Positions 2,272-41,579 of a DNA stretch of 42,036 nt are shown here, piece by piece (position 1 is the first letter of the stretch; the number at the start of each line of letters is the position of its first letter). The notes under the pieces were generated by a model. The model had not been told where the DNA came from, did not search any database, and saw only the letters and a list, made by a program, of their open reading frames with translations. Position numbers and translations under genes: made by a program. The stretch lies in the NCBI GenBank assembly GCA_018648265.1, contig JABGRN010000047.1:1-42036 (forward strand), in the 5' to 3' direction. This stretch comes from Prolixibacteraceae bacterium (GTDB lineage: Bacteria > Bacteroidota > Bacteroidia > Bacteroidales > Prolixibacteraceae).

Positions 2272-5200
2272 GTGAAAAAAATTATAGTCCCCGTTATTTT
2301 GTTGATAATTATTTTAATAGCTTGTCAATCAGAAAAAAAGAAAACAATTACCACCGACATTGAGTTTGGCAAATATGTACAGGCATTTACCAGCGGAACT
2401 ATTTCAAAGGAGGCTGTAATTTCCGTTTATCTCGCTAAACCAATTACAGACTCAGATATTTCAAACAAAAAGATTTTTAGGTTTTCACCCGAAATAGACG
2501 GTGAAATTGTTTTGGTAGGAAATAGAATTGTTGAGTTCAGGCCTTCGGGGCAGTTAAAATCGAATACAACATATTCTGCTGATTTTTTTTTAGGAAAGCT
2601 TTTTGAAACCGAAAAGCAGTTTGAAAAAATGCCTTTTCAGTTTTCAACTGTTAAACAATCATTTTCGATCACATTTGAAGGATTGAAAAATTACGAAAGC
2701 ACAAAAACTAATCAAATGCAGTTTTCGGGTTATTTATTAACAGCCGATATTTTAAATCCTGAAGAGACAGAAAAATTATTACATGCAACATTTGAAAATA
2801 ATCAGGTTGATATTATTTGGCAACATGAACCAGATCGTAGAAAACACTTTTTTACAATCGACAGCCTGAGCAGGTACGATGAAAAGGCAGGTATTTTAAA
2901 AGTTAAATGGAACGGGAAATCGGTAGATATTGATAAAAAAGGAGAGGAAATATTTGAAGTGCCGGGGTTGAATGTTTTTGAAATATTAGATGCAAAAGTA
3001 ATTCAGTTGCCCGAACAACACATTCAAATTCGTTTTTCTGATCCTTTATTAAAAGAACAGGATTTAACAGGATTGGTTGCATTAAACAACGGGGAAAATT
3101 TACGTCTTGAAATAAATGGGAATGTAATAAATGCATGGCCGGAAGGAATAATTTCAGGAGAATTGAATCTTTTGGTAAATGAAGGGATTTCGAATATAAA
3201 CTACTTCAAATTTAAAGAATCTGAAACATTTTTATTACAGTTTAGCAGTCTGAAACCAGCAGTGAGATTGATTGGAAAAGGGGTGATAGTTCCGCAAAAC
3301 AACACTTTAGAAATGCCTTTTGAAGCCGTAAGTTTGAATGCAATTGATGTACGCGTAATCCGGATTTTTAAAGATAATATTTTAGAGTTTTTTCAGGAAA
3401 ACCAATTCGAAGGCAGTGCCGATTTAAAAAAAGTAGGCCGTCAGGTTTATGAAGGAAAAGTTGAATTAAAACCAAATCATCCGGGAGGGCTTGAACATTG
3501 GAGTACCTACAAAGTAAATCTGGTCGATTTTTTTCAAATTGAACAGGGAGCAATTTATCGGATTGAATTCAGGTTTAAAAAAGAATATTCCGTTTACAAT
3601 TGCAGAGAAAATACTCCCGGAAAAAAACTAAAAGAAACTGCTATTCCCGAAAAAGAAAAATACAAAACTGAATGGGATGAACCAGGTTGGTACTATAATT
3701 CTTATTACCCTGAAGATTACGATTGGAATGAACGCGATAATCCCTGCCATGTTTCGTATTACCATTCCGGAAGGTTTGTCAATCGGAATATTTTTGCTTC
3801 GGAACTGGGGATTATTGCTAAAGAAGGTCGCGGACACGAAATGCTTTTCGCGCTTACAAATCTTCTTTCCACTGAGCCGGAAACAGGGGTAAATTTGAAA
3901 CTTTTTAATTTTCAAAACCGGCTAATAGAAACAATACAAACTGATGAAAACGGGTTTGCCCGCGTCGATTTGAAAAAGAAACCTTTTTTTCTCGTTGCAC
4001 AAAAAGGAGATCAGTTTGGATATCTTCGCCTTGATGACGGCAGTTCACTTTCTACAAGTAATTTTAACGTTTCGGGGCAGGAAATCAAAGAAGGAATAAA
4101 AGGATTTATTTATGGCGAACGCGGGGTTTGGCGACCTGGAGACACACTTCATCTGAATTTTATCCTGGAAAAAGAGAATACAGAAATCCCCGAAATCTAT
4201 CCGGTGGTTTTTCAACTAATAAATAGCAGTGGTCAGGTGGTCGAGATACAAGTTCAATCTGAAAATGAAAATGGGTTTTATTCATTTAAACCGCAAACCA
4301 ACACAGATGCACAAACAGGAAACTGGCGGGTAGAAGTTAATGTAGGAAATACAACTTTTTCGAAAAGAATTAAAATTGAAACAGTTAAACCCAACCGTTT
4401 AAAAATTGAATTAGGCCTGCCTTCGTCAGTACTTACTTCCAGTATTTCCGAAATTCCTTTGAGCGCCGAATGGTTGTTTGGTTCACCTGCCCGTTCGCTA
4501 AAAACAAAAATTGATGTTCTTTTTACAAAAGATCAAACCAGTTTTGAAGGATTTGAGCAATATTCATTTACCAATCCGGCCTCTTATTTTTCTCCAGAGG
4601 AACAAACTGTTTTTGAGGGTCGGTTAAATGAAAATGGGAAAACAACAATTCCGGTCAATTTTCAATCGCTTGAGGATGCACCAGGAATGGTAAGAGCATG
4701 GTTCACTTCAAGGGTTTTTGAGGAAGGTGGCGATTATAGTATAAATGTAGAACAAGCAAAATATGCCCCATTTAAAACTTTTGTTGGCGTAAAAATGCCA
4801 ACTTCTGAAGATAACTGGTATAAAACCGATACCGATTATACGCCGGAAATTGTTCTTGTTGACGAAAATGGGAAACCATCATCAGAAGGTAACCTTCAGG
4901 CAAAACTATATAAAATCGACTGGCGCTGGTGGTGGGAGTCGGGTTCAGAAAATTTGGCACATTATGTTTCAGGAAGTTATTACAGGCCGGTTGCTACCTG
5001 GAATATTAATCGGGCAAAACATAAAAACAAGTTAAAACTAAATGTAAAGTACCGCAATTGGGATGATAATGGAAGATACTTACTTTGGATAAAAGATATA
5101 AATAACGGGCATGCCACGGGTGTAACATTCTATATGTCAAAATGGGGAAGCTGGCGTTCAGGAGGAATGGCTGACGGTGCAACAATGCTCACACTCAATA

Positions 5201-7803
5201 CCGATAAAGAAAAATATCTGGTAGGCGAAAATATAGAAATAACTATTCCGTCATCAAAAACAGGAAAAGCACTCGTAAGTATTGAAAACGGGACAAAGGT
5301 TATCGATTTGTTTTGGGTAAAAACCGAAGATAAACAAACCCGGTTTTCTATAAAATCCAAACCGGAGATGGCTCCTAATTTTTATATTCATGTTAGTTTA
5401 ATTCAACCTTACGGACAAACTGAAAACGATGCTCCACTTCGCTTGTATGGCGTTACTCCCGTACTTGTCGAGAATCCTGAGACTGTTTTACATCCGATAA
5501 TTGAAACAGCAAATGAGATCAAACCGGAAACAAAATACATGGTTAAAGTTTCGGAGGCAGACAAAAAAATGATGACTTATACACTCGCCATTGTAGATGA
5601 AGGGTTGTTGGGATTAACCAATTTTAAAACCCCCGATCCGCACAAGTCTTTTTATGCCCGCGAGGCACTTGGAGTTAAAACCTGGGATTTATTCGATTAT
5701 GTGGCAGGTGCATACGGTGCAAAACTGGAAAAAGCTTTTGCAGTTGGCGGAGACAGTGAGATCAAATCGACTGGTAAAAAAGAAGTTAACCGGTTTAAAC
5801 CGGTTGTACATTTTGCCGGCCCTTTTACCATTCAAAAAGGCAAAACGAATAAACATGAGTTTATTATGCCAAATTATGTTGGTGCTGTACGAATGATGGT
5901 AGTTGCAGGAGACAAAGGCGCTTACGGAAATGTAGAAAAAACGGTTCCTGTAAGGAAAGGTTTGATGTTGCTTGCTACATTACCACGGGTATTAGCGCCC
6001 AACGAAGAAGTATTGTTGCCGGTCAATGTTTTTGCCATGAAAGAGAATGTAAAAAATGTTTCTGTCAGGGTAAAAACAAATGAATTAATTGAAATTTCCG
6101 ATGAACATCAAAAAGCACTTACCTTTTCAACTTTAGGTGAAAAGATGGTATTTTTCAAATTAAAAATTAAGGGAAAAACAGGTGTCGCAAAAATAAATAT
6201 CGAAGCAAAAAGTGGTAGCGAAAATGCAACTTACCAGGTTGAACTGGAAGTTAGGAATCCAAATTCAGAAGTGACCGTAGAAAAATCGTCGATGGTTGAT
6301 GGACAAAAGAGTTGGTCAACAGAACTAACAGCTCCCGGCGAACCAGGAACAAATACTGCCTGGATAGAAATTTCGGGATTCCCTTCGCTAAATCTTTCAA
6401 AACATCTCGATTATTTAATCCGGTATCCGCATGGTTGTATCGAGCAAATTACATCTCAGGCATTACCACAACTTTTTCTTGAAGATTTAACTGAGCTTGC
6501 GGCCGATCAAAAACTGGAAGTTGAGGATCATATCAGAAATGCACTAAATAAATTACCGGCATTTCAATTAACAAACGGTGGTTTTGGTTATTGGCCGGGA
6601 GCTGCATTAGTAAACGAATGGGGAACCAATTATGTCGGGCATTTTATTTTGGAGGCTTCAAATTCAGGATATTCGGTTCCTTTAGGAATGAAAGAAAAGT
6701 GGTTAAACTTTCAGAAGACTGCTGCACGAAACTGGAGCCCAACCAATGCTAATCACAATGGATTTTATTTCAGGAATTACGATTTAACACAGGCGTATCG
6801 TTTATATACCTTGGCTCTGGCAGGTTCACCCGACTTGGGGGCAATGAACCGTTTACGCGAAAAAGGAGAAAAATCGGTTGAAGTTTCATGGCGACTTGCA
6901 GCCGCATACGTATTAGCCGGGCAAGCAGAGGCTGCTAAACAACTTGTTAGCAATTTATCATCTGAAATTGATGATTATAATGAATTTGGCGGAACGTTTG
7001 GTTCGGCCTTGCGTGATAAAGCAATGATATTGGAGACACTGATTCTATTGGAACAGAAGGAAAATGCTTTTGAATTATTGAAAAATATCTCGGAAGAAAT
7101 GAACCAACGGGAGTGGTTAAGTACTCAAACTGCTGCGTGGTGCTTATCTGCTGCTGCCAATTTCGCCGGCAAATATTTTAACGATGAGCCTGAAACTAAT
7201 TTTGAACTTCTGGTAAATGGTGAAAAATCAAAACTTCGAACAAGAATCCCGGTTGTAAAATTACCTGTTCAATCCAATTCGGAAGGTAAAATTAGGATCG
7301 AATTAAATAATAAAGGAGAAAATGCAAGTTTTGTAAAAATACTCGCCCGGGGAATAAAAACAGGAGTTGATTCAACTTTAGAATCAAAAAACCTGCTGTT
7401 AAATTTAAAATATTTTGATGCAAATAACAGGGAGATAGATCCGGCTTCATTATCTCAGGGCGAAGATTTGAAGTTGGAAGTTACGGTAAAACATCCGGGG
7501 CAACGTGTAGATTACGAAAAAATGGTATTAAGCACAGTTTTCCCTTCGGGCTGGGAAATTATTAACAAGAGATTGAACGATATTCCCCAAAATCAAAACG
7601 CTGGTTTTGAATATCAGGATATTCGTGACGATCGGGTTTATACCTATTTCGATTTAAACATGAACCAGCAAAAAACATTTGTATTTTATCTGAATGCTGC
7701 GTACGTAGGGCAATTTTATCAGTCTCCGGTAAGTTGCGAGGCGATGTACGATTATAGTGTTCGTGCACAAAAACCCGGGAAATGGGTGAGTGTAAAACAA
7801 TAA
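2272..7803 (+). CDS. Bacterial alpha-2-macroglobulin family lipoprotein
   Basis: Large periplasmic protease-trapping protein of the bacterial alpha-2-macroglobulin family (E. coli YfhM/YfaS relatives), thought to protect the periplasm when the envelope is breached. The start is GTG. Residues 1-18 form a lipoprotein signal with lipobox LIAC, and Cys18 is the predicted lipidation site. The next residue is Gln, so outer-membrane sorting is possible. Repeated beta-rich MG domains fill most of the 1843 residues. YPHGCIEQ near residue 1385 is the thioester motif, with Cys1389 and Gln1392 present, so covalent trapping should be possible. An alpha/alpha-toroid-like segment follows (about 1400-1640). 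The pbpC gene starts 28 bases downstream, the classic A2M-PBP1C pairing that couples protease trapping to cell-wall repair. The length is at the upper end of the family. Confidence 0.95.
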   Translation: MKKIIVPVILLIIILIACQSEKKKTITTDIEFGKYVQAFTSGTISKEAVISVYLAKPITDSDISNKKIFRFSPEIDGEIVLVGNRIVEFRPSGQLKSNTTYSADFFLGKLFETEKQFEKMPFQFSTVKQSFSITFEGLKNYESTKTNQMQFSGYLLTADILNPEETEKLLHATFENNQVDIIWQHEPDRRKHFFTIDSLSRYDEKAGILKVKWNGKSVDIDKKGEEIFEVPGLNVFEILDAKVIQLPEQHIQIRFSDPLLKEQDLTGLVALNNGENLRLEINGNVINAWPEGIISGELNLLVNEGISNINYFKFKESETFLLQFSSLKPAVRLIGKGVIVPQNNTLEMPFEAVSLNAIDVRVIRIFKDNILEFFQENQFEGSADLKKVGRQVYEGKVELKPNHPGGLEHWSTYKVNLVDFFQIEQGAIYRIEFRFKKEYSVYNCRENTPGKKLKETAIPEKEKYKTEWDEPGWYYNSYYPEDYDWNERDNPCHVSYYHSGRFVNRNIFASELGIIAKEGRGHEMLFALTNLLSTEPETGVNLKLFNFQNRLIETIQTDENGFARVDLKKKPFFLVAQKGDQFGYLRLDDGSSLSTSNFNVSGQEIKEGIKGFIYGERGVWRPGDTLHLNFILEKENTEIPEIYPVVFQLINSSGQVVEIQVQSENENGFYSFKPQTNTDAQTGNWRVEVNVGNTTFSKRIKIETVKPNRLKIELGLPSSVLTSSISEIPLSAEWLFGSPARSLKTKIDVLFTKDQTSFEGFEQYSFTNPASYFSPEEQTVFEGRLNENGKTTIPVNFQSLEDAPGMVRAWFTSRVFEEGGDYSINVEQAKYAPFKTFVGVKMPTSEDNWYKTDTDYTPEIVLVDENGKPSSEGNLQAKLYKIDWRWWWESGSENLAHYVSGSYYRPVATWNINRAKHKNKLKLNVKYRNWDDNGRYLLWIKDINNGHATGVTFYMSKWGSWRSGGMADGATMLTLNTDKEKYLVGENIEITIPSSKTGKALVSIENGTKVIDLFWVKTEDKQTRFSIKSKPEMAPNFYIHVSLIQPYGQTENDAPLRLYGVTPVLVENPETVLHPIIETANEIKPETKYMVKVSEADKKMMTYTLAIVDEGLLGLTNFKTPDPHKSFYAREALGVKTWDLFDYVAGAYGAKLEKAFAVGGDSEIKSTGKKEVNRFKPVVHFAGPFTIQKGKTNKHEFIMPNYVGAVRMMVVAGDKGAYGNVEKTVPVRKGLMLLATLPRVLAPNEEVLLPVNVFAMKENVKNVSVRVKTNELIEISDEHQKALTFSTLGEKMVFFKLKIKGKTGVAKINIEAKSGSENATYQVELEVRNPNSEVTVEKSSMVDGQKSWSTELTAPGEPGTNTAWIEISGFPSLNLSKHLDYLIRYPHGCIEQITSQALPQLFLEDLTELAADQKLEVEDHIRNALNKLPAFQLTNGGFGYWPGAALVNEWGTNYVGHFILEASNSGYSVPLGMKEKWLNFQKTAARNWSPTNANHNGFYFRNYDLTQAYRLYTLALAGSPDLGAMNRLREKGEKSVEVSWRLAAAYVLAGQAEAAKQLVSNLSSEIDDYNEFGGTFGSALRDKAMILETLILLEQKENAFELLKNISEEMNQREWLSTQTAAWCLSAAANFAGKYFNDEPETNFELLVNGEKSKLRTRIPVVKLPVQSNSEGKIRIELNNKGENASFVKILARGIKTGVDSTLESKNLLLNLKYFDANNREIDPASLSQGEDLKLEVTVKHPGQRVDYEKMVLSTVFPSGWEIINKRLNDIPQNQNAGFEYQDIRDDRVYTYFDLNMNQQKTFVFYLNAAYVGQFYQSPVSCEAMYDYSVRAQKPGKWVSVKQ

Positions 7804-7831
7804 AGTTTTGAAGGACAAAATATAATACAAT

Positions 7832-10177
7832 TTGAATAAACGCTGGCCAATTATATTAAGTTTTATTTTTTTTCTGTTTCTGGGATTACTCATTTGTGTC
7901 CCTAAACCTTTATTCAATTCCCCATTTTCAACAGTGGTTAATAGCAGCGAAGGAAAACTGCTGGGTGCCCGTATTGCAGCAGATCAACAATGGCGATTCC
8001 CTGCTGTCGATTCAATTCCTGTGAAATACAAAAAGTGCCTTCTGCATTTTGAAGATCGCTACTTTTACTATCATCCGGGAATTAATCTTGTTTCACTTTC
8101 CCGGGCATTTTTTCAAAATATAAAGGAAAAGAAAATAGTAAGTGGAGGCAGCACAATTACCATGCAGATTTGTCGGATGGCACGAGGCCAAACCAGGCGT
8201 TCGATAAAAAACAAAGTAATCGAAATGGTTTGGGCCATTAATCTTGAGCTCCGTTTTTCAAAAAAAGAAATTTTAAAATTATATGCTTCTCATGCCCCTT
8301 TTGGTGGAAATGTTGTTGGAATCGATGCTGCTGCCTGGCGTTATTTCTCACGACCATCATCAGAATTGTCCTGGGCAGAATCGGCAACTCTGGCTGTTTT
8401 GCCAAATGCACCTTCATTAATTTATCCCGGGCGGCTAGATCAGAAATTAAAACAAAAACGCGATCGACTTCTTAAAAAATTACTGGCCCGTGGCGAAATC
8501 GACAGTTTAACTTTTCAATTATCGGTGGCGGAACCCCTTCCGGGAAAGGTGAATCCGCTGCCGTTAAATGCCTATCATTTGATAGAAAAAGCGGCCCTGG
8601 AAAAATCAGGTCAACGAATACATTCCACAATAGACTTTTTTTTACAGGAACAAATATGCGAATTGGTTGAACGGCATCATAAAAAATTACAGGCAAATCA
8701 TATTTATAATATTGCGGTTGTGGTGTCCGAAGTATCGTCGCACGAAGTAAAAGCTTATGTAGGAAATGTTTTTGATGGTAAACAAGCCGACCACGATAAC
8801 CATGTTGATATTATACAAGCGAAAAGAAGTACTGGTAGCATTTTAAAACCGTTCCTTTACTGTAAAATGATTGACGAAGGATTAATTACCCCGCTTACTT
8901 TAATCCCTGATATACCAACTCGTTTTGGAGGTTTTACCCCAATGAACTTTGATCAGGAATATAACGGGGCAGTTCCGGCCGCTGAAGCTTTGTCGCGTTC
9001 GTTAAATATTCCGGCGGTTCAAATGTTGCGAAATTATGGAGTGGCACCATTTCATAATTTTTTGCAAAAAGCTGGCATGAAATCACTGACACAAAATCCC
9101 GATTATTACGGCCTGTCGTTAATTCTTGGAGGGGCAGAAATTACATTATGGGATTTGGCAGGAATGTACACTTCGTTGGTTTCAATTCTAAAAAATTACG
9201 GAGAGAACGATGGTGCTTATAAAATTGAACCGTTTAAAGAATTAATTTGGGAAAAGAATATTTCCAAGTCAAAAATTGAAAAAGTGGAATCTGCCCAACC
9301 TGAAATACGTGCTGGTTCAGTTTATTCAACTTTGCAGGCTTTGTTAGAAGTAAAACGCCCAGATTCGGAAACAGGTTGGGATGAGTTTATATCGGCACGA
9401 AACATTGCCTGGAAAACGGGCACCAGCTTTGGATTTCGAGATGCCTGGGCGCTTGGAATGACACAAAAATATGTTGTTTCTGTTTGGGTTGGAAATGCCG
9501 ATGGTGAAGGCAGGCAAGGATTAACAGGTGTTTCAGCAGCAGCTCCACTTTTATTCGATGTTTTCAGGCTGCTTCCTAACTGCGATTGGTTTGAAATGCC
9601 AGTTGATGAAATGGAACAAATTGAAGTGTGTTCTGAAAGCGGTTACAGGCCAGGTTTAAATTGCGAAACAACAAAAGATATCTGGGTACCAAAAGGTACA
9701 AAAGTTGAAGTTTGTCCCTGGCATATAAAAGTTCATCTAAATGAGTCAGGGACTCACCGGGTAAATGCTGATTGTTTTCCTGTTTCGAAAATGACACATA
9801 AAAGTTGGTTTGTTTTACCACCTGCAATGGAATACTATTTCAGACAAAAAAATCCCGAGTACACAATATTACCTTCATTGTTGCCAGGTTGTTCTAACGA
9901 TATTAAAAATATGGAATTTATTTATCCTCGTGAATGGAACCATGTTTTTATCCCAACTTATTTAGATGGAACTCCCGGACAAATTATTTTTGAACTGGTT
10001 CACCGACAAAACAGAGCAACAGTTTTCTGGCACCTTGATGAAAAGTTTTTAGGATCTACAACCAGATTGCATCAATTAGCACTTAATCCTGAAAAAGGAT
10101 GGCATGTTATAAATGTAACGGATAATCTTGGAAATCAACTTTCAAAGAAATTTTTCGTAGTAGATAAACATGAATAA
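7832..10177 (+). CDS. pbpC: Penicillin-binding protein 1C, peptidoglycan glycosyltransferase/transpeptidase
   Basis: Bifunctional class A penicillin-binding protein of the PBP1C type, anchored in the inner membrane by an N-terminal helix (about residues 7-27). The GT51 glycosyltransferase domain carries the EDRYFYYHPG motif with the likely catalytic Glu74, and SGGSTITMQ near residue 108. The transpeptidase domain has SxxK at Ser336-Ile-Leu-Lys339, SxN at Ser390-Leu-Asn392 and KTGTS at 528-532. The C-terminal part (about 690-781) fits the PBP1C C-terminal domain. The start is TTG, with AAGGA about 17 bases upstream. The preceding A2M gene is in the same operon, which is the conserved arrangement in many Gram-negatives. 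All catalytic residues are present and the length is normal. Confidence 0.96.
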   Translation: MNKRWPIILSFIFFLFLGLLICVPKPLFNSPFSTVVNSSEGKLLGARIAADQQWRFPAVDSIPVKYKKCLLHFEDRYFYYHPGINLVSLSRAFFQNIKEKKIVSGGSTITMQICRMARGQTRRSIKNKVIEMVWAINLELRFSKKEILKLYASHAPFGGNVVGIDAAAWRYFSRPSSELSWAESATLAVLPNAPSLIYPGRLDQKLKQKRDRLLKKLLARGEIDSLTFQLSVAEPLPGKVNPLPLNAYHLIEKAALEKSGQRIHSTIDFFLQEQICELVERHHKKLQANHIYNIAVVVSEVSSHEVKAYVGNVFDGKQADHDNHVDIIQAKRSTGSILKPFLYCKMIDEGLITPLTLIPDIPTRFGGFTPMNFDQEYNGAVPAAEALSRSLNIPAVQMLRNYGVAPFHNFLQKAGMKSLTQNPDYYGLSLILGGAEITLWDLAGMYTSLVSILKNYGENDGAYKIEPFKELIWEKNISKSKIEKVESAQPEIRAGSVYSTLQALLEVKRPDSETGWDEFISARNIAWKTGTSFGFRDAWALGMTQKYVVSVWVGNADGEGRQGLTGVSAAAPLLFDVFRLLPNCDWFEMPVDEMEQIEVCSESGYRPGLNCETTKDIWVPKGTKVEVCPWHIKVHLNESGTHRVNADCFPVSKMTHKSWFVLPPAMEYYFRQKNPEYTILPSLLPGCSNDIKNMEFIYPREWNHVFIPTYLDGTPGQIIFELVHRQNRATVFWHLDEKFLGSTTRLHQLALNPEKGWHVINVTDNLGNQLSKKFFVVDKHE

Positions 10178-34071: not shown

Positions 34072-35166
34072 TTACAAGCGAATAAATATCTTCTTTTTAT
34101 AAAGGAAATAACAAACATACCACAACATTGCGGCAACCAAAAGGGTTGAGATTATTATTAAAACAACTTCGTTGGTCCAACTAAAAATTCGGTAAATAAA
34201 CGGATCGACCAATCCACTAAAGAATCTTTTAAAACTACCTGCCATCAAATAAATAAATAGCGGATTCATTCCAAAAACTGCAAAAAACATGGGCACTTTT
34301 TTGAAATTTAAAATGTCGATTAACCAATAAGAAATTGCCATTCCTATTAAACACCAGCCTCCACTAACGATAATAAATGAACTCGTACAAATGTGTTTGA
34401 TAATCGGAATAAAAGGATTCATTGCATAACCGATAATCACACCAATTGTTCCCGCAATTAAAAGCGTCAAAATCTTTTTTTGGTGTGTCCAGTCTTTCAT
34501 TAAAATCATTCCGGTAAGTACTCCCCAAATGGTATGTGCCGAAGTAGGAATAGCGTTAAATGGTACCCAGTTTCCATGTTCCAAACTTCCCGTCAACATC
34601 ATATCAGTCCACGAACCAAAGTTTTGCCCGGCAACAAATGGCTGGTTAAATCCTTCAACCGGCCAATAACGATACAACAAATCCGACACTAGAATCAAGG
34701 CAAATGAAATTATCAACTGCCACTTTATTTGTTTGCGCATTATAAGAAAAGCTATCAAATACGTAACCGAAAGTTGCGCCATTACATTATTAAAATTTGA
34801 CGTGGTTGCACTAGAACTAATTGCCCAACCGATTAGCAGCAAGTACAGACAACGGGTAAGGACATGATAAAGTGTCTTTTTCCAACTGTCGCCTTTTGCC
34901 CATCTTCGCGTTAACGAAAATGGCATTGCCACACCTACAATAAACATAAAAAAAGGTTGAATCAGATCCCAGAAACGAAGTCCTTCCCATGGTACATGAG
35001 TTAGCTGCTGTTGGATAAAATTTATAACCGGGCTATTATTGGCCGGATCTAATTTTCCAAACATTCCACCTAAACCGCCAATAAGCAAAAACATGGTAAA
35101 TCCGCGAAAAAAGTCAATTGAAAAAATTCGATTTTGTTCTGTTTTTAGATGAATTGAGTCACTCAT
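34072..35166 (-). CDS. NagX/DUF5009-like membrane protein (heparan-alpha-glucosaminide N-acetyltransferase-like)
   Basis: Multi-pass inner-membrane protein of the DUF5009/NagX family, distantly related to human HGSNAT, which acetylates glucosamine using cytosolic acetyl-CoA. The N-terminus has the signature SIDFFRGFTMFLLIGG, followed by WEGLRFWDLIQPFFMFIVGVAMPFS and about ten helices, and ends in YKKKIFIRL. At 364 residues the length is typical. In Bacteroidota these genes often accompany amino-sugar or glycan use. Here the neighbour is a divergent NodB-like deacetylase, which fits sugar (de)acetylation, though this is inference. The 313-base gap to that gene carries no clear shared operator. 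Activity is not certain. Confidence 0.85.
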   Translation of the reverse strand: MSDSIHLKTEQNRIFSIDFFRGFTMFLLIGGLGGMFGKLDPANNSPVINFIQQQLTHVPWEGLRFWDLIQPFFMFIVGVAMPFSLTRRWAKGDSWKKTLYHVLTRCLYLLLIGWAISSSATTSNFNNVMAQLSVTYLIAFLIMRKQIKWQLIISFALILVSDLLYRYWPVEGFNQPFVAGQNFGSWTDMMLTGSLEHGNWVPFNAIPTSAHTIWGVLTGMILMKDWTHQKKILTLLIAGTIGVIIGYAMNPFIPIIKHICTSSFIIVSGGWCLIGMAISYWLIDILNFKKVPMFFAVFGMNPLFIYLMAGSFKRFFSGLVDPFIYRIFSWTNEVVLIIISTLLVAAMLWYVCYFLYKKKIFIRL

Positions 35167-35442: not shown

Positions 35443-35450
35443 TACTTTTA
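35443..35450 (+). promoter_or_regulatory. -7-like box of the deacetylase gene
   Basis: TACTTTTA, one mismatch to TAnnTTTG, about 30 bases before the ATG at 35480. It argues against the earlier in-frame ATG at 35450, which would sit on the box itself. Confidence 0.35.
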
Positions 35451-35479
35451 TGGTATTTCAATCCAAAAAGAATCATTTA

Positions 35480-36766
35480 ATGAAGAAAATTTCGCGCCGC
35501 AATTTTATAAAAAACACATCTAAACTTTCGTCGGGATTAGTAATATTAGGGACTAACACACATTTTCTAAGTTCTTGTTCAATAAAAAATACAAGCGAAA
35601 AAAAATTGAAAATATTTATTCCGATGCCAATCCAGGTTGTTATTGATGATGTGGGATGGTGGTCGGGTAAAGATGGAAGCAAAAAGCAAGAACCCTACCG
35701 GACAGGTATTAATCGGAACCATGTTCCAAATGATTACCTGGCCATTGCGGAATTGGGGCGTGAACTGGGAATCAGGCCACAGGCAGCTATTATTTTATGC
35801 GAGTGGGATAAAAAGAATATTCTTCGACAATTGCCCACAAGTACATGGATGAGCGAAAAGTGGGATAACTCAAAATGGGTTGGTCAATGGCTTGAAGAAA
35901 CAGCAGAAATTATACGAAACAATAAAAATCATTTTGAACTAACCGTTCATGGCATTGGTCATGAATATTGGGAAGGAGGAAACTTTACCCGTGCCGAATG
36001 GACAGATTCAAAAGGACAGATGCGCCCTCAGGATCAGGTTGAATTACATCTTGATTATTTTGAGAAGTTAATGAACCAACATAACCTTGGATCATTCCCG
36101 AACTCTTTTGTCCCAACTGCATTCAGGCATTCGTTTGGCCCATCAGAAGGAAGGAATATAAGCCTGGCCGAAATTCTTGAAAAAAGAGGTATTACATATA
36201 TTAATAGTCCGTTTGAAGGAATGTACAATAATGAAAGAATACAACACGAACTATTCGGGTTTGATGCCGGAGTAATGACAATTGACAGAGGAAGCGACGA
36301 ATTTCCGTGGGACACATTTCCGGGAAATCCCTCCATGGAATTAACAGGGCCGACCTGTGGAATGCACTGGCCAAATATGTTACATCCAAATCCGGAAAGA
36401 AATTCTGAGGTCGTCCAAAAATGGGTAAATTACCTGAAACCATACAATGAGAAACAAGATATGATGTTAGCCCCGGATTCAGTGGCTTTTCAAAATCAGC
36501 TTGTTCACCAGACACTGACAAAAACTCAATTAAAAAGAAATTCCATTAAAATCGATTTTACAGAAACCGACAAACTTCCAAGTGGAGTTGGTATGGGAGA
36601 ACTGACATTAAAAATAGTAACAGATAAACCTACGCAGTTTAAATCGGAGGATATAAAAATTAAGTCACAAACATTACAAAGGGGCAGTAAATTCCTTTAT
36701 AATTTAATACTGAAACGGAAAGCTGGGAAATTGAAGGTTAATATAATATTTGATTCTGCAAAATAA
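35480..36766 (+). CDS. Exported polysaccharide deacetylase-like (NodB-fold) lipoprotein
   Basis: Predicted periplasmic or surface deacetylase on a carbohydrate substrate. The N-terminus reads MKKISRRNFIK with a twin-arginine-like SRRNFIK, a hydrophobic stretch and then LSSC as a lipobox. NodB-like catalytic motifs are suggested by IDDVGWW (metal Asp pair), HGIGHEYWEGG (the H-x-x-x-H metal motif) and FVPTAFRHSFG (Arg/Pro motif). The C-terminal 80 residues look beta-rich. About 428 residues from the ATG at 35480. The substrate is unknown. The divergent NagX-like gene suggests amino-sugar or glycan modification. It may need Tat secretion, and fold assignment is by motif only. Confidence 0.7.
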   Translation: MKKISRRNFIKNTSKLSSGLVILGTNTHFLSSCSIKNTSEKKLKIFIPMPIQVVIDDVGWWSGKDGSKKQEPYRTGINRNHVPNDYLAIAELGRELGIRPQAAIILCEWDKKNILRQLPTSTWMSEKWDNSKWVGQWLEETAEIIRNNKNHFELTVHGIGHEYWEGGNFTRAEWTDSKGQMRPQDQVELHLDYFEKLMNQHNLGSFPNSFVPTAFRHSFGPSEGRNISLAEILEKRGITYINSPFEGMYNNERIQHELFGFDAGVMTIDRGSDEFPWDTFPGNPSMELTGPTCGMHWPNMLHPNPERNSEVVQKWVNYLKPYNEKQDMMLAPDSVAFQNQLVHQTLTKTQLKRNSIKIDFTETDKLPSGVGMGELTLKIVTDKPTQFKSEDIKIKSQTLQRGSKFLYNLILKRKAGKLKVNIIFDSAK

Positions 36767-36827: not shown

Positions 36828-37739
36828 TTATTTCTTAATCCTTAAAAATAAATTAATCCCAAGGGGTTCCTTTAACACATCAATCTTCGATTTTTCAATT
36901 CCTGCCTGGAGAGCAAATTGCTTTAATTCATCGGCCGACCGATGATACAAAAACCAATCGCCAAGAATCTCCATTGCCCTTCTCGAAGGGTTTTCAATGT
37001 TAAAATTGCCAATTATCATTTCGCCCCCTTCATTAAGATATTCGTAATATTTTTTTAACAAGAAAACAAAATGTTTGCCTTTGAAATAGTCGAACAAGCC
37101 GGCACTCCAAATTAAATCGTATTTTTTTTCAGGTGAGTAACGTATTACATTTCTATTATAAAAAGTCATTTTACTCAAATACTTCCAGTTCTTATTTTTT
37201 GCATAAGCAATTGCCCTTTTATCCATGTCGAGCATTTCGAACACGAGCGAATTTTCAGGATTCTTTTCAAAAAACTCGAAAGTTTCGGTTACTGGCCCAC
37301 TTCCCAAAATCATAACATCCTGCCGCAAGCCCATTGCTTTGGCATTTAGCTTTTCGAAAATACCGATGGCCAAAGTTTTGCGGTTAACAACAGCTATTAC
37401 AGCCGGGGCAGAATGAAGAAATATATCCCACTTTTTATAACGTTTGTCTGGATTTACATAGCTTTGATATATTTTTTCTATTATAAAAAAATCGCCACTA
37501 TAACCGAATGGTTTTGTATATGAAAATCCGAAAAGGGTGGCTGAATTTAATATAGGTGCAATTTTATTTCGAAAACTCTCAATATCTTCTGCTTTAACCT
37601 GGTCAACTATCTCGAAAAACTCCAAATAATCTTCTTTGTCAGGACCATTTTTTAAGAAAATACTTTGAATATAGGCATCTAAATCAATGGAATCAATATT
37701 CATAATTTCACAATCTTTTCTAGTAAAAATGTTATTCAT
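36828..37739 (-). CDS. PhcB-like SAM-dependent methyltransferase
   Basis: Class I SAM-dependent methyltransferase. The Rossmann part has VMILGSGPVTETFEFF (SAM loop) and LVFEMLDMD near residue 195. Upstream, PFGYSGDFFIIEKIY and PAVIAVVNRK match the GY-x-GD and AVxNR signatures that I associate with PhcB-type enzymes annotated as making 3-hydroxy-palmitate methyl ester (an extracellular factor in Ralstonia). The known relatives often carry an N-terminal cyclic-nucleotide domain, absent here. The start is taken as the ATG at 37739, which overlaps the LytTR regulator's stop by 8 bases; starts at 37754 or 37703 are alternatives. Last gene of a five-gene signalling operon. The substrate is inference from family and context. 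Confidence 0.7.
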   Translation of the reverse strand: MNNIFTRKDCEIMNIDSIDLDAYIQSIFLKNGPDKEDYLEFFEIVDQVKAEDIESFRNKIAPILNSATLFGFSYTKPFGYSGDFFIIEKIYQSYVNPDKRYKKWDIFLHSAPAVIAVVNRKTLAIGIFEKLNAKAMGLRQDVMILGSGPVTETFEFFEKNPENSLVFEMLDMDKRAIAYAKNKNWKYLSKMTFYNRNVIRYSPEKKYDLIWSAGLFDYFKGKHFVFLLKKYYEYLNEGGEMIIGNFNIENPSRRAMEILGDWFLYHRSADELKQFALQAGIEKSKIDVLKEPLGINLFLRIKK

Positions 37740-38511
37740 CATCAACAATTTCACCTAATTCACTCTCAAGCCCCATCACCAATTCTTTGTATGCGACTTC
37801 CACCGTAATTACACTCATTTTGTCTGCAATAATAACTTCGGGATATTTTACGGCAAATACTTTTGAACTGTTGATGACAAAATTCCCGCTTACCTGGATA
37901 AAATTCTTTTTTGGTAATAATCCAATAATATCGGAAAATAATTTTTCTGTAACAATCTCATCATCAAACAGATGAATTGTTGTTTGCCCGTCTTCTTTTT
38001 CAACAAAGTACACGTCATCAATATTTATTTTCTCAAAACCTTTATTTACCTGTATAATAAACTGTTTCTTTGGCTGGTCTTTTAAGTCGAAGAAAGTATT
38101 AAATTGATCGCTCTCCATCTTAAGTTTTAAATCGTTGCCAAATTTAAAAATCGCAATTTCGATATTAGTTTGTAAATCTTTATCGGTAAACGGCTTAATA
38201 ATATAACCGTAAGGAAGCGCAACTTTTGCTTTGTTTACAGTTGCAATATCGGCGTTTGCAGTTAAATAAATTATAGGGACATCATGCTTTTGTATAATTC
38301 TCCTGGCCGCTTCTATCCCACTCATTTCCCCTTTTAAATTTATATCCATCAAAATCAGGTCGGGCAATGATTTTTCAACTTCTTTAATAGCTTTAAGTCC
38401 GGTATCTACTGAATTTTGCACACTGTACCCCAGGCTTTCAATGCTTTCTTCTATATCTGTTGCGACTAATAATTCATCTTCAACAATTAATATTTTATAC
38501 TTTGGGTTCAT
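37732..38511 (-). CDS. LytTR-type response regulator
   Basis: Two-component response regulator of the LytR/AlgR type. The receiver domain has ILIVEDE and the phosphoacceptor Asp56 (LPDLILMDI), with IIYLTANAD and the conserved Lys in YIIKPF. A LytTR DNA-binding domain follows from about residue 150 to 245 (VYFVEKEDGQTTIHLFDDE, NFIQVSGNFVINSSKV). Length 259. Its ATG overlaps the stop of the upstream receiver-kinase gene by one base (TAATG), which indicates translational coupling and a shared pathway. It probably activates the methyltransferase or its own operon, since no other target is nearby. The LytTR position corresponds to the response-regulator gene phcQ in the Ralstonia operon. Confidence 0.92.
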   Translation of the reverse strand: MNPKYKILIVEDELLVATDIEESIESLGYSVQNSVDTGLKAIKEVEKSLPDLILMDINLKGEMSGIEAARRIIQKHDVPIIYLTANADIATVNKAKVALPYGYIIKPFTDKDLQTNIEIAIFKFGNDLKLKMESDQFNTFFDLKDQPKKQFIIQVNKGFEKINIDDVYFVEKEDGQTTIHLFDDEIVTEKLFSDIIGLLPKKNFIQVSGNFVINSSKVFAVKYPEVIIADKMSVITVEVAYKELVMGLESELGEIVDDE

Positions 38512-39587
38512 TAGTTTGATAGTTTAAATTTAATTGTAAATTTAGTTCCATTTGAAAAATCACTTTGCAATTCTCCTTCTATTTGCTGTACTAATTTATG
38601 AATAATTTTCATACCAAGCGATTTAGTTTTAGTAATATCAATTTCTGTTGGAATACCAATTCCATCGTCGCAAACCGTTAAAAGGAACTCTCCTTCTTCT
38701 ATGAGTTTAAAACGAATGCAGATAGTTCCGTTTGCTTTGTCAACAAAAGCATATTTAAATGCGTTTGAGATAAGTTCATTAATTATTAAACCACAAGGGA
38801 TTGCAACATCCATTGGAAGATATGCATCATCAATTTGGTAGTCGAATTTAACATTGGCCTGCTGGCTGGCGTACGTCCGGGCTATGTTTCCCGATAAACT
38901 TTTAATATAACTCGAAAACTTAATATCTGCCAAATTCTTATTGTTATACAGGTTTTCGTGGATGAGTGCCATTGAATGTATCCTGTTTTGGCTCTCCTGC
39001 AATATGTCTTTCAATTTCTGATCGTCAATAATACGGCCCTGCATACGCAATATGCTCGATATTATTTGCATATTATTTTTAACCCGGTGATGGACTTCAC
39101 GAAGCAAAATATCTTTTTCCTCTAGTGATTTTTTCAGATAATTTTCGGCTTCCTGGCGTTTTTTCTCCTTTCTTTCAAGCTCCCATTTCATTAAGGTAAT
39201 TCCAGCAAATTCATCTATTAACGACAGTAGTTTTTTTGCTTCAACAGGCTTCATCAAATAACCATCAATACCCAAATGTATTGCTTCAATAAAACTATCT
39301 TTATCGCTATACGCCGACATCACAATAATTTTTGCATCTTGGGCAATCTTCTTGATCTCTTTTACCATTTCCAAACCATTCATCACCGGCATAACCATAT
39401 CGGTAATCACTAAATCGGGTTTGTGCTTTTCATACAATTCTAATCCATGATGGCCATCTTTAGCTATAAACAAATTTTCTACATGTTTTGCCAGGAATTT
39501 TTTATACAGTTGCCTGATTATTTCGTTGTCGTCAACAAAAAGTACAGAAATATTATATCGTTGCACTGGTCCTTTCCTTTTATTCAT
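38511..39587 (-). CDS. Receiver-histidine kinase hybrid (N-terminal REC, HisKA_2-type kinase)
   Basis: Soluble hybrid regulator with the receiver at the N-terminus and the kinase at the C-terminus, the reverse of the usual hybrid order. The receiver has VLFVDDNE, Asp63 in LVITDMVMP and Lys113 in GYLMKPV. A coiled linker (134-158) leads to a HisKA_2 dimerisation motif, LREVHHRVKNNMQII, with the phospho-histidine at 166 or 167, and an ATPase domain with LIINELISNAFKYAF and DDGIGIP. Length 358, no membrane segment. It is preceded by a 111-base gap and followed directly by the LytTR regulator (stop and start share a base). In domain layout it matches Ralstonia PhcR, a receiver fused to a kinase-like domain. 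Confidence 0.93.
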   Translation of the reverse strand: MNKRKGPVQRYNISVLFVDDNEIIRQLYKKFLAKHVENLFIAKDGHHGLELYEKHKPDLVITDMVMPVMNGLEMVKEIKKIAQDAKIIVMSAYSDKDSFIEAIHLGIDGYLMKPVEAKKLLSLIDEFAGITLMKWELERKEKKRQEAENYLKKSLEEKDILLREVHHRVKNNMQIISSILRMQGRIIDDQKLKDILQESQNRIHSMALIHENLYNNKNLADIKFSSYIKSLSGNIARTYASQQANVKFDYQIDDAYLPMDVAIPCGLIINELISNAFKYAFVDKANGTICIRFKLIEEGEFLLTVCDDGIGIPTEIDITKTKSLGMKIIHKLVQQIEGELQSDFSNGTKFTIKFKLSN

Positions 39588-39698
39588 TTATTTAAATTAA
39601 ATATTTTTTATGGTAAATGATATACTTTCCAGATAAAATGACCAAACCCGACTTGAATAAAATTCATCTTTCTTTGTACGATTTTATCTATGATCGTT

Positions 39699-40091
39699 TC
39701 ATTCCTTTGAATATTTTTCAAACTGCTTAACCATAATTTCAAGTAACTTTTCTCGTATTATTGGTTTAAAAACTATTCCGTCGCACCCTGAAGTCGCAAT
39801 TTCTTCGTAGGCATGTCCCATAACACTTGCAGTTTGAATTATGATTGGTATATCGGGTGCAATTTGTTTTATTCTTTTTGTTGCTTCAACACCGTCTAAA
39901 ACCGGCATTCTTATATCCATTAATATTACATCAACTTTTTTCTTTTCCTGCACATAGTCAATAGCTTCTTGTCCGTTGATTAACCAAACAAAATTTGCTT
40001 TAGTTTTTCTTAATTGAGTTTTTATCAAAACAAGGTTAATTTTAATATCATCAACTATTACTATTGTTTTGTCTTCCCAGTTGAGTTGCAT
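39699..40091 (-). CDS. Single-domain receiver (CheY-like response regulator)
   Basis: A stand-alone receiver domain of 130 residues with no output domain. VIVDDIKINLVLI holds the acidic pocket, LMDIRMPVLDG holds the phosphoacceptor Asp59 and VFKPI holds the conserved Lys. DDIKxN is typical of receivers that pair with hybrid kinases. It starts 6 bases after the stop of the membrane kinase, so it is almost certainly cotranscribed with it and is probably its direct phosphate acceptor. It may act as a phosphate shuttle or sink between the membrane kinase and the downstream hybrid kinase. Confidence 0.93.
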   Translation of the reverse strand: MQLNWEDKTIVIVDDIKINLVLIKTQLRKTKANFVWLINGQEAIDYVQEKKKVDVILMDIRMPVLDGVEATKRIKQIAPDIPIIIQTASVMGHAYEEIATSGCDGIVFKPIIREKLLEIMVKQFEKYSKE

Positions 40092-40097
40092 AAATTG

Positions 40098-41579
40098 TTA
40101 CTTTGGTTGGTTGTTGAAAATGGGCAGTTTAAAAGAGAACTTTGAACCTACATCTAATTTGCTATTTACTGAAATATCCCCCCCCATTAAATTTAAATAG
40201 GTTTTTGTAATTGCCAAGCCCAAACCTGTACTTTCACGGCCAGGTGTCCTACTTGTTGAAGCCTGCATAAACCGATCAAAAATGTGTTCTTGTAGTTCTT
40301 CCTTTATTCCAATTCCAGTATCTTTGACAAAAAAATCAAGTGTATCATTTTTTAGTGTGTAATAAAATTCGATGTTTCCCTTATCAGTATATTTACAAGC
40401 ATTTTTCACCAGGTTAATTATTATCTGTTTTAATCTTACCCTGTCGGTATAAACTACAGATTTTCCGTCAGGCAAACCATTTTTATAGCTAAGGTTCAAA
40501 TTTTTTGTAACAACGTTTTCCTCAAGGCTAAACATATCATAAATCTCCTTGGTTAACATATTCAATTCAAATTCACTTTTTTCGATTTTTAATATACCTG
40601 CCTCAATTTTCGATAAATCTATTATGTCATTAATCAAATTAAGTAAATGCTCTCCATTATGTATAATTACGCTAATAAATTCATCTAATTCTTCTTCATC
40701 CTCTGCTTCGCGCAAAAGATTTGCAAAACCAACAATTCCATTCATCGGGGTACGGATTTCGTGGCTCATATTAGCAAGAAATGCAGATTTAAGTTTATCT
40801 GATTCTTCTGCTTTATCCCTTGCAATAATCAGCTCCTTTTGAATTAATGATCTTCGTTCAACCTCGTCTTTCAGATCTTCATTCCTGGTATTCAACAATC
40901 TTGTCCTATCCTGGACTTTTGCTTCCAAATTTTTATTAACACCTTCTATCTCAGCATTTTTACCTGCTATTTGCAAATAAAGATTAAAATTTTGCCTGTT
41001 AAAAATTTCGTTACTATAAGCTGCAAACATTCCGATAAGATTTGCCCCAATAAAAAAGAAACTATTTGAAACAATAATTTTATTATCAATTTCAAATATC
41101 AAGGAAGCAACAATATAAATAACTATCACAATCCAACTTGCTACCGATACCGATAAAAAGCGAAGTTTTATTAATACAGCCCCTGAAAGGAAAACAAGGA
41201 TCAACCCACTACTGTAAACTACTGCCTCAGGAAGCAAAACGAGCATTATTATTATTCCAACTGCACCTATCAAATAGGCGGCAAAAATCAAAGTCTGCCA
41301 ATAATTTTTAAAGTTCTTTGAATATGATAGTAACGCCACAGATAGCAAAACAGGCACAACTACAATACGAATAATAATAAAAAGCTTGAAAAAATCTTCT
41401 GCAACAATACTATCGAGGTATCCAAAAAAACCATAAAGCAATGACAAAATTACAAATGCAGCTCTCGTTGTCTTAAATGAACGGTTAAAATACGATTCCC
41501 TATACTTACTTTCTCTTTCGTCAGGAAAGTTAAGCGTAAATTTGTTTAAATCAGTAGTATCGTCAGAACTAAAATTCAT
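40098..41579 (-). CDS. Membrane histidine kinase with six-helix N-terminal domain
   Basis: Inner-membrane sensor kinase. Six hydrophobic helices are predicted at about 40-57, 64-85, 98-117, 122-138, 145-163 and 171-189, with no periplasmic sensor domain, so it probably senses a lipophilic or membrane signal. A coiled coil (200-262) leads to HisKA with His273 (MSHEIRTPMNG) and a HATPase with IIINLVKNACKYTD, DTGIGI and STGLGLAI. Length 493. It is first in a same-strand cluster with a receiver, receiver-kinase, LytTR regulator and PhcB-like methyltransferase. PhcS of Ralstonia is also a polytopic kinase without a soluble sensor domain. The ATG at 41579 has no recognised -7 box. Confidence 0.93.
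   Translation of the reverse strand: MNFSSDDTTDLNKFTLNFPDERESKYRESYFNRSFKTTRAAFVILSLLYGFFGYLDSIVAEDFFKLFIIIRIVVVPVLLSVALLSYSKNFKNYWQTLIFAAYLIGAVGIIIMLVLLPEAVVYSSGLILVFLSGAVLIKLRFLSVSVASWIVIVIYIVASLIFEIDNKIIVSNSFFFIGANLIGMFAAYSNEIFNRQNFNLYLQIAGKNAEIEGVNKNLEAKVQDRTRLLNTRNEDLKDEVERRSLIQKELIIARDKAEESDKLKSAFLANMSHEIRTPMNGIVGFANLLREAEDEEELDEFISVIIHNGEHLLNLINDIIDLSKIEAGILKIEKSEFELNMLTKEIYDMFSLEENVVTKNLNLSYKNGLPDGKSVVYTDRVRLKQIIINLVKNACKYTDKGNIEFYYTLKNDTLDFFVKDTGIGIKEELQEHIFDRFMQASTSRTPGRESTGLGLAITKTYLNLMGGDISVNSKLDVGSKFSFKLPIFNNQPK

Follow-up and report, generated by a model that had tools for sequence, protein, structure and literature searches.

A proposed Phc-like signalling cassette in a Bacteroidota genome

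As far as literature searches show, descriptions of Phc-type signalling are confined to Ralstonia and related betaproteobacteria. Does a five-gene locus in a Prolixibacteraceae genome (phylum Bacteroidota; assembly GCA_018648265.1) encode a system of the same kind? The locus occupies positions 36828-41579 on the minus strand of contig JABGRN010000047.1, which was analysed at its full length of 42,036 bases (hereafter the window) and is one complete contig within a 5.58-Mb assembly. In reading order, the genes encode a membrane histidine kinase (memHK), a lone receiver (REC), a REC-kinase, a REC-LytTR regulator and an S-adenosylmethionine (SAM) methyltransferase (MT), and a first-pass annotation had likened them to the Ralstonia phcBSRQ operon. 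We favour, with moderate confidence, the explanation that the genes form a Phc-like cassette with which Bacteroidota produce and sense a signal, and in which the MT would form a methyl ester that is perceived by memHK and reported through a relay to the LytTR regulator. Judged from the sequences, the cassette appears to be Phc-like without being a PhcBSRQ operon: the synthase half is homologous to PhcB, the sensor half appears to be distantly homologous to PhcS, and relay and output are different.

Comparison of the methyltransferase with PhcB

Pfam alone does not name the family of the MT, since all Pfam hits are under the curated cut-offs, and the NCBIfam hits are likewise sub-threshold. In the profile-profile comparison (hhalign) that the first-pass annotation had proposed, the Bacteroidota MTs and PhcB matched at 99.8% (E 1.8e-30) over 252 columns, which places the MT in the wider PhcB family and not in an unrelated one. 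The region preceding the SAM fold (pre-SAM region), which carries the KPxGYxGD and NR motifs, gave 96.9% (E 1.9e-10) on its own, compared to 1.1% for the reversed control, and its invariant residues are common to the MT and PhcB. A profile made from betaproteobacterial PhcB only had a single match in the 5.58-Mb host genome, the window MT (E 1.9e-8). These comparisons indicate that the MT is a genuine PhcB relative, belonging to a separate but related subfamily, since the PhcB clade stands apart from the Bacteroidota MTs in the unrooted MT tree, with long branches between them. The cassette-type versus solo/other labels require seven changes on this tree, the minimum possible being six. Rooting and dating of the kinase linkage were dropped due to the long branches.

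The starting point for the PhcB references was a tblastn match to a Paraburkholderia plasmid, which led to an operon of MT, kinase, receiver and receiver. Scanning a single genome for each species yielded at least 505 relatives, the best 80 of which were used as references; by title, all of these are betaproteobacterial (Paraburkholderia, Cupriavidus, Janthinobacterium, Massilia and similar genera, and one Candidatus Nitrotoga). PhcS- and PhcQ-like genes follow PhcB in all of these best 80 loci, and 58 have a long PhcR-like gene, as judged by length. Residues reported for Ralstonia Phc proteins (available text of PMC6989110 and PMC11960443) also identify the reference loci as Phc operons. Arg22 of PhcB is kept in six of six reference sequences checked, and His230 and Leu161 of PhcS as well as Arg154 of PhcQ stand at exactly the Ralstonia-reported numbers in one of them (L131), being shifted in the other five. 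A complete Phc system has been reported for Cupriavidus (PMC2842291, available text).

As a side observation, the PhcR position holds a short lone receiver, again by length, in 18 of the best 80 Phc operons (e.g. L015 and L065), and four have no PhcR-like gene, so the kinase half of PhcR may be dispensable there.

Substrate of the methyltransferase

The homology to PhcB, whose product is a lipid methyl ester according to the available text of PMC8578825 and PMC11960443, and the acyl-linked gene context of other relatives suggest a fatty-acyl substrate for the MT. At one locus (L053), the MT-family gene overlaps a fatty-acid desaturase gene. An operon on a Deinococcus plasmid (L016), whose make-up resembles that of a cluster for a lipid signal or a lipid metabolite, combines a fatty-acid desaturase, a FeeM N-acyl amino acid synthase, another methyltransferase and an MT-family member. 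On an Enterobacter ludwigii plasmid (L248), a polyketide synthase protein ends in KS-ACP-MT, with the MT being of this family, and such a terminus suggests chain release as a methyl ester. Other solo MTs have neighbours without an acyl hint, e.g. a globin, a helicase, a TonB receptor or a radical SAM protein, and none of the PDB sequence hits of the MT extends to the KPxGYxGD motif.

The same genes could form a signalling unit of Phc logic with other chemistry, in which the MT product is a non-lipid small molecule or a lipid kept in the cell. The superfamily is broad enough for this, with one member located close to EAL and GGDEF-EAL genes in Rhizobium, one fused to a cNMP-binding domain and several solo members, and the generic result of the fold search and the low identity to PhcB would fit as well. 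However, the entire pre-SAM region with its invariant residues is common to the MT and PhcB, and three relatives lie beside fatty-acid desaturases, FeeM or a polyketide synthase terminus, so we consider a different chemistry rather unlikely.

Distribution and linkage to kinases

The neighbourhood survey called for by the first-pass annotation was run in Bacteroidota at a threshold of E <= 1e-10, own genome included, and found the MT in 24 of 393 genomes of the order and in 12 of 395 genomes of the phylum. Combined with the survey of the genus (see below), this gave 46 MT loci in 45 genomes, 45 of which loci were examined by script; an MT fragment (L187) was under the profile threshold, leaving 44 scored loci. 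A same-strand kinase or receiver gene lies directly adjacent to the MT in 31 of these 44, with nine loci lacking one and four situated at a contig edge. The addition by hand of L182, where the kinase is split by a frame break, and of the degenerate L187 brings the linked loci to 33 of 46, compared to a background of 12 among 222 other genes of the same loci (>=120 aa, more than four genes away). Outside the genus of the window, linkage was found at 24 of 35 loci. These counts are inflated because close relatives are included. One genome (G599), which has an open frame of 2,778 aa with two MT-superfamily domains (L166/L167), was counted as unlinked by default.

Four forms of the cassette were found, namely the five-gene form of the window, a four-gene form in related families (five loci, L169-L173) in which memHK is fused to the lone receiver, a three-gene form (MT, kinase-REC, REC), and the form of family f43 (MT and a histidine kinase (HK) of the type HK-REC-REC; L046-L051 and L055, four of the seven loci scanned with Pfam). 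The MT pairs with three distinct kinase architectures, and gene order goes either way. In both f43 kinases scanned against NCBIfam, LuxN was the best model for the kinase core (321 and 282 bits, with a cut-off of 1550).

Kinase or receiver genes beside the MT at 33 of 46 loci would also be compatible with a CheR-like protein methyltransferase that modifies memHK or a receiver for adaptation, with no diffusible signal involved. The MT has a sub-threshold Pfam CheR hit (E 0.019), and the chemotaxis methyltransferase 5ftw is among its 23 PDB profile hits (E 5.9e-5, SAM region). We hold this to be very unlikely, as the CheR hit amounts to 14.8 bits versus a cut-off of 27, other generic methyltransferase models and structures score higher, a Pfam scan of the five-gene cassette detected no CheB-type esterase or chemoreceptor gene, the kinases paired with the MT are of three different architectures, and a lipid methyl ester is what the closest characterised relative found, PhcB, produces (PMC8578825 and PMC11960443, available text).

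Comparison of the membrane kinase with PhcS

Six hydrophobic helices were counted in memHK, corresponding to six predicted transmembrane helices. The sensor profile of the memHKs of the five- and four-gene forms matched the PhcS sensor at 97.2% (E 3.3e-11) over 165 columns, and the kinase sensor of the three-gene form reached 81.6%. As controls, reversed profiles gave 0.1-0.3%, and an unrelated membrane protein 0.3%; the highest value among 20 block permutations was 48.6% for the five/four-gene profile and 9.0% for the three-gene profile. Of the 393 genomes of the order, 46 have a PhcS-type sensor, including 20 of the 24 with an MT (Fisher p 2e-17 for the co-occurrence, uncorrected for relatedness). 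The six-helix sensor of memHK thus appears to be distantly homologous to that of PhcS and to be part of a broader family; it would support membrane or lipid sensing in general and not a specific ligand.

Fifteen further loci (L233, L234 and L235-L247) encode six-helix PhcS-like sensor kinases with no MT seen adjacent; two such kinases are in the window's own genome, and some of the 15 loci end at a contig edge. Such sensors may be listeners, or a general membrane sensor. MASE8 (PF20968) was tried as a common named sensor domain and rejected, as the window kinase scored 16.4 bits versus a cut-off of 26.2. The references are also sub-threshold (17.6 bits for Paraburkholderia PhcS, 13.9 for Cupriavidus PhcS), and six other MT-linked kinases scanned gave no match.

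Conservation within the genus

In the genus, 36 congeners were searched for the MT at E <= 1e-6 and for the LytTR regulator at E <= 1e-40. The MT is present in ten of them, six of which keep the full five-gene order (one of these loci, L027, with a stop codon inside the LytTR frame) and three of which have this order interrupted by contig ends. The tenth (G011) has a divergent MT of 42% identity; the contig stops on one side of it, and the other side shows no cassette gene. The LytTR regulator was found in eight congeners, all eight with an MT, and in none of the 26 MT-less congeners, in which the other three signalling genes were not searched separately; some of the MT-less assemblies are incomplete, and in most of those 26 just 43 of the first-look candidates were scored. 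Signalling genes lacking the MT in most relatives, which the first-pass annotation had named as the counter-evidence to look for, are therefore not what the genus displays for the LytTR gene, the one searched. A more distant genome (G048) has a LytTR regulator of 44% identity and no MT. As far as the LytTR gene represents the four signalling genes, the cassette is inherited as a unit.

Together with the 33 of 46 linked loci and the pairing of the MT with three kinase architectures in either gene order, the co-inheritance of LytTR gene and MT makes it highly improbable that the MT is a passenger, i.e. a metabolic enzyme incidentally carried by an operon for an ordinary phosphorelay that responds to an environmental cue, even though many kinases without an adjacent MT use the PhcS-type sensor.

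Relay and output

The REC-kinase is nearest to the PhyK model and the receiver of the LytTR regulator to the PhyR model, both far under the NCBIfam cut-offs. The REC-kinase of the window has HisKA_2 (98.5 bits), whereas PhcR of Cupriavidus has HisKA (31.5 bits); the regulator of the window has LytTR, whereas PhcQ of Cupriavidus shows Response_reg only. Since kinase class and output domain differ, the relay/output branch is not orthologous to PhcR and PhcQ, whose counterparts in the window correspond to them in architecture only. The predicted phospho-sites are in place: H273 is present in memHK, and D59, D63 and D56 of the three receivers as well as H166-H167 of the HisKA_2 kinase are invariant in alignments of 11, 16 and 16 sequences including the window. 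Given the natural fusion of kinase and receiver in the four-gene form, memHK probably passes its phosphoryl group to the lone receiver first.

For the Phc-like cassette, we propose the following course of events. The MT would O-methylate a fatty-acyl compound at its carboxyl group and thereby give a diffusible methyl ester; the compound is probably a 3-hydroxy fatty acid. The ester would be detected in the membrane by memHK, as the PhcS-type sensor and the recurrent gene pairing suggest, with a resulting shift in the phosphorylation state. The phosphoryl group would then pass from the lone receiver to the REC-HisKA_2 kinase and on to the REC-LytTR regulator, a path that is based on the domain order, the conserved phospho-sites and the natural kinase-receiver fusion. 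The REC-LytTR regulator may finally act on promoters and thus stand in for what is the PhcR/PhcQ/PhcA branch in Ralstonia.

A number of results speak against this explanation. The identity of the MT to PhcB is 22-26%, about 185 N-terminal residues of PhcB are missing from the MT, and the PhcB and PhcS sequences compared came from other betaproteobacteria, with none from R. solanacearum. The AlphaFold model of the MT has a mean pLDDT of 64.4 and is weak before the SAM fold, and Foldseek found generic class I methyltransferases with it. Solo MTs are basal within the Bacteroidota MT clade, so the coupling to kinases may have an origin separate from that of PhcBS. As regards the sensor, the f43 kinase sensor did not match that of PhcS (0.3%), a search of the host genome with the PhcS-sensor HMM gave no match, and a PhcS-type sensor is also present in 26 of 369 MT-less genomes of the order. 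A profile of 15 kinases without an adjacent MT matches the PhcS sensor equally (97.2%, E 3.4e-11); we therefore rejected a sensor match specific to MT-linked kinases, and the match does not identify the ligand. Lastly, no target of the LytTR regulator was found, and no LytTR site or conserved promoter was visible by eye upstream of memHK in an alignment of the window with six congeners.

Features of the locus and its surroundings

Open reading frame positions and Pfam confirmed the five genes of the first-pass annotation with their common strand, order and domains (Table 1). The gene joins are, in order, a 6-base gap, a 111-base gap, a 1-base overlap and an overlap of the LytTR and MT genes. 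They agree with those given before, although the reported 8-base overlap requires the ATG at 37739 as MT start; the other candidate, a GTG at 37754, gives 23 bases. All seven congeners that show both the lone-receiver gene and the hybrid-kinase gene have an overlap of 1-23 bases between them, and the 111-base break is therefore a peculiarity of the window. Instead of the convergent gene that lies downstream of the MT in the window, nine congeners have a 204-aa gene at this position; a single one of these (L020) was scanned and is an FAA-hydrolase. PF18962, the sorting tail of type IX secretion, is a marker of Bacteroidota; it had 75 matches in the host genome and none in each of 14 control genomes.

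Table 1 Features of the window and loci in other genomes. Positions of L-numbered loci are those of the respective locus.
Feature	Position	Strand	Description
Membrane sensor histidine kinase	40098-41579	minus	493 aa; HisKA (H273) and HATPase_c
Lone receiver domain	39699-40091	minus	130 aa; phospho-site D59
REC-HisKA_2-HATPase kinase	38511-39587	minus	358 aa; D63, motif H166-H167; PhyK-like core
REC-LytTR response regulator	37732-38511	minus	259 aa; PhyR-like receiver (D56), LytTR DNA-binding domain; presumed output
Class I SAM methyltransferase, PhcB-related	36828-37754	minus	308 aa; KPxGYxGD / NRK / AGLFDY family
Convergent gene downstream of MT	35450-36766		438 aa; no Pfam or NCBIfam match
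NagX-like membrane acetyltransferase	34072-35166		NCBIfam NF046061, 137 bits, under cut-off of 480
Deinococcus plasmid operon (L016)	3374-6732		
Enterobacter ludwigii plasmid locus (L248)	5655-8792		
PhcS-like sensor kinase (L233)	4644-7088		
PhcS-like sensor kinase (L234)	5159-7072		

Significance

The statement of the first-pass annotation that no Phc-type system was known from this phylum is borne out by our literature searches: none is described for Bacteroidota in the open-licence literature searched for PhcB and 3-hydroxypalmitic acid methyl ester, including the available text of a 2026 review (PMC13220807). Two surveys sought PhcB or related names through annotation text (PMC9540692 and PMC12503165, available portions) and, being based on annotation text, probably would have missed the MT genes of Bacteroidota. 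If the explanation holds true, Bacteroidota gain a synthase-plus-receptor quorum system of a type undescribed there, a concrete signal class to look for is named, and cross-talk across phyla becomes testable. More tentatively, the locus could belong to a patchy but widespread family of lipid methyl ester quorum sensing in Bacteroidota, in which a single lineage of PhcB-like synthases has joined with two or more kinds of polytopic kinases (PhcS-like and LuxN-like) and, in one order, has been rewired to a HisKA_2-LytTR phosphorelay, and in which many PhcS-like sensors of MT-less genomes would be listeners.

Comparison with known systems

The PhyR/PhyK type of HisKA_2 signalling resembles the relay of the window in that PhyK is the best-scoring model for the REC-HisKA_2 core and PhyR for the receiver of the LytTR regulator. 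It differs in that these scores are far under the cut-offs and the output is LytTR, with an anti-anti-sigma role not indicated. The three-gene and f43 forms of Bacteroidota have kinase-linked MTs of the same clade, and the three-gene form starts with the MT as phcBSRQ does, but in both forms REC-HisKA_2 and LytTR proteins are not adjacent. The f43 form is further set apart by its kinase core, closest to the LuxN model, and by its sensor, which does not match PhcS.

The resemblance to PhcBSRQ (Ralstonia solanacearum complex, Cupriavidus, Paraburkholderia) put forward by the first-pass annotation stands in part. A one-to-one equivalence of the genes was not upheld: the MT of the window is without the N-terminal part of PhcB, its gene comes last whereas phcB comes first, there is an additional lone receiver, the REC-kinase is of the HisKA_2 and not, as PhcR, of the HisKA class, and the output is LytTR whereas the C-terminus of PhcQ is unannotated. 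What was upheld is the homology of the MT to PhcB across both the catalytic and the pre-SAM parts and the occurrence of a REC-kinase protein together with another REC regulator in the same operon; the six-helix kinase sensor appears to be distantly homologous to that of PhcS in profile comparison.

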